Below, piece after piece: positions 7,785 to 9,752 of a stretch of DNA of 64,000 nt; the stretch's first letter is position 1; each line of letters starts with the position of its first letter. The notes under the pieces were generated by a model. The model did not search any database, was not told where the DNA came from, and was given only the letters and a program-made list of their open reading frames with translations. The stretch lies in assembly GCF_016774335.1 (NCBI RefSeq), contig NZ_JAETWA010000047.1:1-64000 (forward strand), given 5' to 3'. A program made the position numbers and the translations under genes. The stretch comes from Luteimonas saliphila. Lineage in GTDB: Bacteria; Pseudomonadota; Gammaproteobacteria; Xanthomonadales; Xanthomonadaceae.

Positions 7785-9518
7785 TCAGACCGCGGGCACC
7801 GCCTGCGCGTGCACGCCGGCCACCGCGCGCCCGGACGGATCGGCCATTGCCGCGAAACTCGCGTCCCAGGCGATGGCCGTCGGCGACGAGCAGGCGATCG
7901 ACTTGCCGCCCGGCACCGTCTGCGCGCAGGCGGTGCCGGGGTAGAACTGCTCGAACAGCATCCGGTAGTAGTACGCCTCCTTGGTCTGCGGCGGGTTGAC
8001 CGGGAAGCGCCGGTCGGCGGCGGCCAGCTCGCGGTCGCTCACCTGCGCCTGCGCATGCGCCTTGAGGCCGTCGATCCAGCCGTAGCCGACGCCATCGCTG
8101 AACTGCTCCTTCTGCCGCCACAGGATCGGATCGGGCAGCTCGCCCTCGAATGCCTCGCGCAGCACGCCCTTCTCCATCCGCCGCGGACCGCTGTCGTCGC
8201 GGTCGATCATCTTGTACGCCGCGTCCATCCGCATCGCCACGTCGAGGAACTCGCGGTCCAGGAACGGAACGCGCGGCTCCACGCCCCAGGCCATCATCGA
8301 CTTGTTGGCGCGCAGGCAGTCGTAGTTGGCGAGCGCGTCGAGCTTGCGTACCAGTTCCTCGTGGAATTCGCGCGCGTTGGGCGCCTTGTGGAAGTACAGG
8401 TAGCCGCCGAAGATCTCGTCGCTGCCCTCGCCCGAGAGCACCATCTTGACCCCCATCGCCTTGATCCGGCGCGCCAGCAGGTACATCGGCGTCGAGGCGC
8501 GGATGGTGGTGACGTCATAGGTCTCGATGTGGCGGATCACCTCCGGCAGCGCGTCCAGGCCTTCCTGGAAGGTGTAGGTGAAGCCGTGGTGCACCGTGCC
8601 CAGCGCGGCGGCCGCGACCTCGGCGGCGGCGAGGTCGGGCGAGCCCTCCAGCCCGATCGCGAACGAGTGCAGGCGCGGCCACCAGGCCTCGCTGCGATCG
8701 TCGTCCTCGACGCGGTGGCGCGCATAGCGCGCGGCGACCGCGGCGACCAGCGAGGAGTCCAGGCCGCCCGACAGCAGCACGCCATAGGGCACGTCGGTCA
8801 TCAGTTGCCGGTGCACCGCGGCCTCGAACGCGGCGCGCAGCTCCTCCTTCGGTACCTGCACGCCCTCCACCGCCGCGTAGTCGCGCCACGGACGCTCGTA
8901 ATACTTGCGCAGCACGGGCTTGGACGTCTCCGCGGCGTCGGCCGGGAACTCGTAGTAGTGCCCCGGCGGGAACTGCGCCACGTCGGCGCAGATCGGCGCC
9001 AGAGCCTTCATCTCCGAGGCCACGCACAGGCGCCCGGCGCGGTCGTGGCCCCAGTACAGCGGCACCACGCCGATCGGGTCGCGTGCGATCAGGGCACGTC
9101 CCTTCTCCGCGTCCCACAGCGCGAAGGCGAAGATGCCGTTGAGCCGCTCGAGGAACGCGGCCGCCCCCCCCGCATCCGCCCCGCTCTCGCGGTACAGGGC
9201 ATTGATCACCTCGCAGTCCGACCCGGTCTGGAACGCGTAGTCGCGCACCAGTTCGGCCTTGAGCTCGCGGTGGTTGTAGATCTCGCCGTTGACCGCCAGC
9301 GCGAGCGCGCCGTCGGCCGAACGCAGCGGCTGCGAGCCGCCGGCCGGATCGACGATGGCCAGGCGCTCGTGCACCAGGATCGCGCGCCCGTCGTGGTACA
9401 CGCCGCTCCAGTCCGGGCCGCGGTGGCGCTGCTTCTGCGACAGTTCCAGCGCCTGCCGCCGCAGCGCGGGGACGTCGTCGCCGGGCTGCAGCCCGAACAT
9501 GCCGAAGATGGAACACAT
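7785..9518 (-). CDS. asnB: Asparagine synthetase B, glutamine-hydrolysing
   Basis: Makes asparagine from aspartate, ATP and glutamine. It is 577 residues, close to the E. coli AsnB type. The start MCSIFGMFG gives the nucleophile Cys2 after Met removal. The class II glutaminase domain (RHRGPDWSG, VNGEIYNHRELK) covers about 1-200. The synthetase domain has the PPi loop LLSGGLDSSL and SGEGSDEIFGGYLYF. The ATG at 9518 is preceded by AGGAG at a spacing of 9. The upstream leader holds an Asn-rich small ORF and an intrinsic terminator (separate entries), which argues for attenuation control by Asn supply. Confidence 0.97.
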   Translation of the reverse strand: MCSIFGMFGLQPGDDVPALRRQALELSQKQRHRGPDWSGVYHDGRAILVHERLAIVDPAGGSQPLRSADGALALAVNGEIYNHRELKAELVRDYAFQTGSDCEVINALYRESGADAGGAAAFLERLNGIFAFALWDAEKGRALIARDPIGVVPLYWGHDRAGRLCVASEMKALAPICADVAQFPPGHYYEFPADAAETSKPVLRKYYERPWRDYAAVEGVQVPKEELRAAFEAAVHRQLMTDVPYGVLLSGGLDSSLVAAVAARYARHRVEDDDRSEAWWPRLHSFAIGLEGSPDLAAAEVAAAALGTVHHGFTYTFQEGLDALPEVIRHIETYDVTTIRASTPMYLLARRIKAMGVKMVLSGEGSDEIFGGYLYFHKAPNAREFHEELVRKLDALANYDCLRANKSMMAWGVEPRVPFLDREFLDVAMRMDAAYKMIDRDDSGPRRMEKGVLREAFEGELPDPILWRQKEQFSDGVGYGWIDGLKAHAQAQVSDRELAAADRRFPVNPPQTKEAYYYRMLFEQFYPGTACAQTVPGGKSIACSSPTAIAWDASFAAMADPSGRAVAGVHAQAVPAV

Positions 9519-9564
9519 GGGGCGGAACTCCTGGGTTGCGAACGGTGGCTGGATGCGCGGACAC

Positions 9565-9594
9565 GAAAAAGCCCGCATCTTGCGATGCGGGCTT
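9565..9594 (-). terminator. Intrinsic terminator in the asnB leader (attenuator)
   Basis: Read on the minus strand, an 11-bp perfect stem (AAGCCCGCATC with GATGCGGGCTT) closed by a GCAA tetraloop is followed by TTTTTC. It sits 27 bases after the leader-peptide stop and 46 bases before the asnB ATG, so it would cut off transcription before asnB. Its 5' arm can pair instead with codons 26-28 of the leader ORF (GCGGGCTGCA, about 10 bp with one bulged A), giving an antiterminator. Confidence 0.88.
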
Positions 9595-9621
9595 GCATGG
9601 ACGGCGTGGTCTTTCGGGGAT

Positions 9622-9717
9622 CTACGCCGGGCTGCAGCCCGCTTCGCGCACACGATTGTTCGCCGCGCCGGGATTGCGGCCGGAAGCGTTCGCGTTGCGG
9701 AAGGACTGCGGTGCCAT
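9622..9717 (-). CDS. Asn-rich leader peptide of asnB (31 residues)
   Basis: ATG at 9717, TAG at 9622-9624. The peptide begins MAPQSFRNANASGRN and ends EAGCSPA. Asn is at positions 8, 10, 15, 20 and 21 (5 of 31), including an adjacent pair 11 codons before the stop. A ribosome stalled at that pair would leave codons 26-28 free to pair with the 5' arm of the terminator; one that reaches the stop would cover them and let the terminator form. This is the standard layout of amino-acid leader attenuators, here matching the product of the downstream enzyme. No Shine-Dalgarno is evident, and the predicted promoter would start the transcript at the A of the ATG. Confidence 0.8.
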   Translation of the reverse strand: MAPQSFRNANASGRNPGAANNRVREAGCSPA

Positions 9718-9723
9718 GTCGCG

Positions 9724-9752
9724 AACGTAACCGCCGCCACCGGCATTTGCAA
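9724..9752 (-). promoter_or_regulatory. Candidate promoter of the asn leader and asnB
   Basis: Minus-strand -35 TTGCAA (9752-9747), 17-base spacer, -10 TACGTT (9729-9724). The expected start point falls on or next to the A of the leader ATG (9717), so the leader ORF may be translated from a leaderless transcript. Confidence 0.5.

Follow-up and report, generated by a model that had tools for sequence, protein, structure and literature searches.

A putative asparagine-sensing peptide-leader attenuator upstream of asnB in Luteimonas and related bacteria

The window analysed here, a 64,000-nt stretch of DNA from a bacterium of the Xanthomonas group, carries on its minus strand a short leader ORF, an intrinsic terminator and asnB, in this order. 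Their divergently oriented neighbour codes for an ABC1 atypical kinase domain. The features of the locus are as follows.

9724..9752, minus strand: inferred promoter, with TTGCAA at 9752..9747, a 17-nt spacer and TACGTT at 9729..9724, ending 6 nt before the leader ATG
9622..9717, minus strand: leader ORF of 31 codons plus TAG (ATG at 9717..9715, stop codon TAG at 9624..9622)
9633..9647, minus strand: antiterminator 5' strand, GCGAAGCGGGCTGCA, within leader codons 24-29, from the fold with a ribosome at Asn20 and from RNA duplex prediction
9569..9594, minus strand: intrinsic terminator with 11 perfect pairs and a 4-nt loop, followed by TTTCG
9594..9584, minus strand: 5' arm of the terminator, which is also the 3' strand of the antiterminator
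7788..9518, minus strand: asnB, coding for asparagine synthase B (577 aa), with its stop codon at 7787..7785

The leader peptide, MAPQSFRNANASGRNPGAANNRVREAGCSPA, is encoded with five Asn codons (residues 8, 10, 15, 20 and 21), and the adjacent AAC-AAT at codons 20-21 is the likely control pair. Since only TTTCG follows the 3' arm of the terminator, the U-tract is moderate, the last two T of the arm itself lengthening the run. A terminator scan of 601 nt on both strands returned two overlapping sites, compared with a mean of 0.4 in shuffled sequences, and the asnB product scored 852 bits against the NCBIfam model for asparagine synthase B (cut-off 499). An initial annotation of this DNA had described the same arrangement, namely, a 31-codon ORF with five Asn codons including a tandem pair, a perfect 11-bp terminator with a T-tract, and asnB behind it, and all of these elements were found again at the positions given above. 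An Rfam search of the window gave 0 matches at the gathering score, whether to the T-box or to any other family, and a search of phages with the leader DNA gave no match. A 16-mer, GCCGGGCTGCAGCCCG, occurs twice in the window, early in asnB (9480) and at the end of the leader (9626), perhaps by chance in GC-rich codons.

For comparison, we assembled a close set of 81 loci, consisting of the window and the best 80 of 533 asnB loci from a scan of named genomes (Luteimonas, Pseudoxanthomonas, Xanthomonas, Stenotrophomonas and others). Leader and terminator were present at all 81, with one leader (L072) partly N-masked. An ATG-initiated ORF of 15 to 38 aa with 3 to 10 Asn lies upstream of asnB at 80 of these loci, and in 77 of the 81 upstream regions such an ORF holds at least five Asn; at the remaining locus, the masked L072, the visible end reads as an Asn leader. 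L208 (G282:C83:1400-2500), apparently the same locus as L072, shows two leader-terminator units in tandem before asnB with N between them, which may be an assembly artefact. Among 4235 random 330-nt stretches of the 80 loci, ATG ORFs of this length with at least three Asn were seen in 26, and with at least five in 3. The 80 scored leaders average 6.85 Asn per 30 residues, a value conditioned on their having been picked for at least three Asn. Asn makes up 23.5% of their post-Met residues versus 2.5% expected from composition; the two remaining sense frames give 0 and 0.2%. As for the terminators of the 80 close loci, 68 were called by program and the other 12 by eye; a second finder called 99 of 101 and missed L050 and L142, both visible by eye. 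The U-tract, short in the window, is weak in L142. Typically, a leader has a variable N-terminus followed by clustered Asn residues and then an Asn-Asn pair, and it ends in a C-terminus such as RARPMRVCD, the codons of which repeat the terminator 3' arm. The check suggested with the initial annotation, conservation of the Asn codons in homologous leaders, thus came out positive: Asn codons, terminator and the pairing C-terminal codons are kept, and the N-terminal half varies.

In the computed fold with a ribosome at Asn20, GCGAAGCGGGCUGCA (9647..9633) pairs with UGCAAGCCCGCAUCGC in a helix of 14 pairs, interrupted by one mismatch and one bulge, that encloses a small GGCGU/ACGCC hairpin. The pairing of codons 26-28 with the terminator 5' arm that had been noticed initially is real, and longer than described, covering codons 24-29. 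With the ribosome at the stop codon of the window leader, the leader strand is removed and the terminator forms. A ribosome at Asn21 yields the antiterminator only until the terminator 3' arm has been transcribed. With the full terminator present, at equilibrium, a stall at Asn20 alone leads to the antiterminator and a stall at Asn21 to the terminator, so the switch would have to be kinetic or act at Asn20. In the ribosome-free state, RNA ending at the terminator loop shows an antiterminator probability of at least 0.5 in 84 of 99 leaders; the window RNA with its whole terminator folds into the terminator, its antiterminator strand being paired with a more upstream part of the leader.

We then scanned these 99 leaders (79 close, 20 distant; L072, L177 and the leaders of L207, L209 and L211 were left out) by halting the ribosome codon by codon and folding the nascent RNA, reading out the pairing of the terminator 5' arm with the leader and assuming a front edge 12 nt past the start of the A-site codon. 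The permissive range of stall codons ended one to two codons past the last Asn in 84 of the 99 leaders, that is, in 75 of the 79 close and 9 of the 20 distant ones; over the 20 distant leaders, the end varied from -2 to +4 relative to the last Asn. Among the distant leaders, the register rule thus holds less well than one would conclude from the 84 of 99, which slightly lowers our confidence in the attenuator reading. The median antiterminator probability was 0.73 for a ribosome at the last Asn and 0.00 for one at the stop codon. The permissive range took in 652 of 657 Asn codons, whereas 200 permutations gave 485 on average and never more than 519. Setting the front edge to 9 or 15 nt shifted the range by one codon either way and kept 655 and 651 of the 657 Asn codons inside. 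L009 was an outlier because of a late Asn. For the window, the stall proposed earlier, at residues 20-21, lies at the edge of the permissive range; the fold gives the antiterminator for Asn20 and, once the whole terminator is present, the terminator for Asn21.

In RNA duplex predictions, 82 of the 99 leaders showed stronger binding of the leader strand to its own arm than, on average, to other-type arms, with mean energies of -20.5 versus -17.4 kcal/mol when relatedness is ignored. We aligned 54 close leaders and measured the pairing of each helix. The terminator helix reached 98.4%, and both partners had changed in 5 of its 12 pairs. The antiterminator reached 88.1%, versus 18-46% when slid, and its inner hairpin 76.7%. 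Three antiterminator pairs changed on both sides, a number matched by 260 of 500 shuffles; the covariation score was matched by 9 of 500. What preserves the antiterminator helix among close leaders is thus mostly sequence conservation, and its covariation is weak.

A covariance model built from the asnB leaders (R1) matched in 240 of 297 genomes of the family, which is no count of Asn leaders, because the weaker matches include leaders of ilvC. Such ilvC leaders were found with this model in the present genome and five relatives (L198, L203-L206 and L210). At L198 (around G000:C45:181739-181831), a branched-chain leader peptide (..SSLLVVVLITSPTGAGRSGA) and a terminator precede ilvC; at this locus, the one of the six for which the downstream gene was checked by family search, that gene is ketol-acid reductoisomerase. 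The geometry of the ilvC leaders is like that of the asnB leader, with Leu/Val/Ile codons in place of Asn and a terminator core of ACCCCGC, and in the stall scan the permissive range of all six ended shortly after the Leu/Val/Ile run. They are an independent comparison for the geometry linking stall and antiterminator.

To see what is conserved in the Asn codons, we counted changes at codon positions 1/2/3 by parsimony on a tree of asnB genes. The three best-kept Asn columns gave 1/6/18, 3/3/12 and 4/3/9, mainly exchanges between AAC and AAT. Over all seven columns with at least 60% Asn, the counts were 59/68/94, a weaker contrast because the Asn codons further upstream are gained and lost. 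Thirteen further leader columns gave 220/197/162, the nine C-terminal leader columns 60/54/40, and nine Asn columns inside asnB 26/5/57. These counts indicate that the last Asn codons are conserved as an amino acid and not as bases. AAT accounts for 257 of 548 Asn codons in 80 leaders versus 114 of 837 in the asnB genes of the 80 loci (Fisher p 5e-42, ignoring relatedness), and for 143 of the 198 last-two Asn codons of the 99 leaders, although it is the rarer Asn codon in asnB. This preference may make decoding slower or prevent the region from pairing, and the rarer codon AAU in the control pair may tune sensitivity.

These data bear on whether Asn is what the leader senses. A translated leader might instead report general translation speed or ribosome supply, its Asn codons being incidental, and in our model the antiterminator is indeed freed by a stall at the majority of codons in the leader's first two thirds. 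We consider this improbable given the retention of Asn identity through synonymous change at the last control columns, the about ninefold excess of Asn over composition, and the Leu/Val/Ile codons at the equivalent place of the ilvC leader in the same genome. Less probable still is a small Asn-rich peptide with a function of its own, behind which the terminator merely ends a small transcript. There is precedent for such a peptide in the trpL leader peptide of S. meliloti, which acts in trans according to passages of PMC7298713; the Asn-rich peptides, however, range from 20 to 45 aa across the 99 modelled leaders, vary freely outside the Asn and C-terminal codons, and have C-terminal codons that repeat the terminator 3' arm.

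How far the arrangement reaches was addressed with a further sample of 59 asnB loci: 15 from family f12 (probably Rhodanobacteraceae), 3 from f2, 7 divergent ones from f1, the family of the window, 22 from f7, 11 from f9, and 1 from another order. An Asn leader with terminator was found at 13/15 loci in f12, 3/3 in f2 and 5/7 in divergent f1, and at 1/22 in f7, 0/11 in f9 and 0/1 in the other order (1/34 in all for these last three groups). The f12 and f2 leaders differ in sequence and have a stem of the GGCCCGC type. No leader precedes two divergent f1 copies and two f12 copies of asnB (65-68% identical), which are perhaps paralogues. The 33 loci without the pair in f7, f9 and the other order include 8 that have an ORF with at least three Asn (any of three start codons) without a terminator and 3 that have a terminator-like hairpin by the second finder (L170 was flagged by the first finder, too), and none of them has both; for L162 and L169, two of the 34 loci, the upstream sequence available was limited to about 95 and 325 nt. 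The one positive in f7, L163 (f7/g94), carries an Asn leader and terminator of its own, located 144 nt upstream of asnB, the pair being absent from the other 21 of the 22 f7 loci. It seems to have a longer untranslated start rather than being leaderless, and its Asn leader is perhaps of independent origin. At the class level, an AsnB match with an E value of 1e-150 or better was obtained in 4 of 274 genomes, three of them in the family. That a chance ORF lies beside an ordinary terminator is scarcely credible: at other-family loci an ORF with at least three Asn does occur without a terminator (8/34), as does a hairpin without such an ORF (3/34), but the conservation of the combined layout before asnB in three families with diverged sequences contradicts chance, as does the rarity of ORFs with at least five Asn in random windows (3/4235).

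Of the 80 close leaders, 76 have a TANNNT box whose end lies 6 or 7 nt upstream of the ATG; we take this box to be a promoter motif, and it was read off the alignment rather than called by a promoter tool. A stricter sigma-70 scan returned no site at the inferred promoter. A Shine-Dalgarno-like word within 20 nt upstream was present in 2 of the 80. Only 3 of 20 other leaders have the box at 5-6 nt, although inspection by eye often shows a TTGC and a TAGT word in them. The position of the promoter suggests that the transcript probably starts at the leader AUG, which would make the leader mRNA leaderless.

The reading we favour, with a probability of roughly 0.9, is that of a ribosome-mediated transcription attenuator that would sense charged tRNA-Asn and control asnB; this interpretation, offered in the initial annotation, is well supported by the comparison of loci. 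The leader is a short ORF with conserved codons for the amino acid product of the gene it would regulate, and an intrinsic terminator stands between it and asnB. In computed folds, a ribosome stalled at the control codons leaves the antiterminator strand free, and one at the stop codon hides it. Leader, Asn codons, terminator, mutually exclusive helices and spacing are all visible in the sequence, its comparison or its computed folds, and from them we infer a start site, stalling and an effect on expression. Transcription would start at or next to the leader AUG, with a ribosome loading on the leaderless end. With ample Asn-tRNA, the ribosome would reach the stop codon and hide codons 24-29, the terminator would form, and RNA polymerase would stop before asnB. 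With scarce Asn-tRNA, the ribosome would stall at codons 20-21. Its front edge would then not quite reach the antiterminator strand, so that this strand would be free to pair with the terminator 5' arm and allow asnB to be transcribed.

Such control would act on what is probably the only source of asparagine in this genome. We found one AsnB match at 1e-100 or better; AsnRS is present, and the GatB and AsnA families gave no match in this genome, so AsnB probably is the sole supplier of Asn for tRNA charging.

A more far-reaching version, put forward tentatively and at somewhat less than even odds, is an Asn-specific attenuator shared by several families of one order, with a leaderless leader mRNA and antitermination as the ribosome-free default, such that asnB would be on unless the leader is fully translated. 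Our estimate for this version is slightly lowered because the ribosome-free window RNA with its complete terminator folds as terminated. In known attenuators, though not in all, a protector (1:2) hairpin causes termination without translation; on such a hairpin in the asnB leaders, the ribosome-free folds point both ways, the nascent RNA up to the terminator loop mostly favouring the antiterminator and the complete window RNA the terminator.

Searches of the literature, confined to open PMC text, found no asparagine leader attenuator; the initial annotation knew of no well-described asparagine version in this group. The main text of PMC2965389 contains 'asparagin' 0 times, and passages of PMC3771888 deal with AsnB2 of Xanthomonas and hold no leader data. 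If the favoured reading is true, asparagine would join the amino acids sensed by leader-peptide attenuation, and the setting of asparagine supply in Xanthomonas, Stenotrophomonas, Luteimonas and Pseudoxanthomonas, where AsnB may be the sole supply (other routes were checked in this genome only), would be explained. The diverged asnB leaders, with their probable leaderless start and a similarly built ilvC attenuator, would also form a natural data set on how stall codon, ribosome footprint and RNA pairing keep register.

The kind of mechanism, peptide-leader attenuation, is known; its Asn specificity is the part that the open PMC text searched did not show. Peptide-leader attenuators control the his, thr, leu, ilv, trp and pheA operons of proteobacteria. 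Like these, the asnB leader combines a short ORF rich in codons for the end product, mutually exclusive antiterminator and terminator helices, and a biosynthetic gene; unlike them, it has Asn as its codon, asnB as its gene and a probable leaderless start. In Firmicutes, asparagine genes are under T-box control, which shares with the proposed attenuator the sensing of tRNA-Asn charging and differs from it in that the tRNA binds the RNA directly, without a leader peptide. A parallel for the probable leaderless start is the trpL attenuator of S. meliloti, the RNA of which, according to passages of PMC7298713, begins at the ATG of the leader ORF, although it differs from the asnB leader in its Trp codons, its 14-aa peptide and its alphaproteobacterial host.
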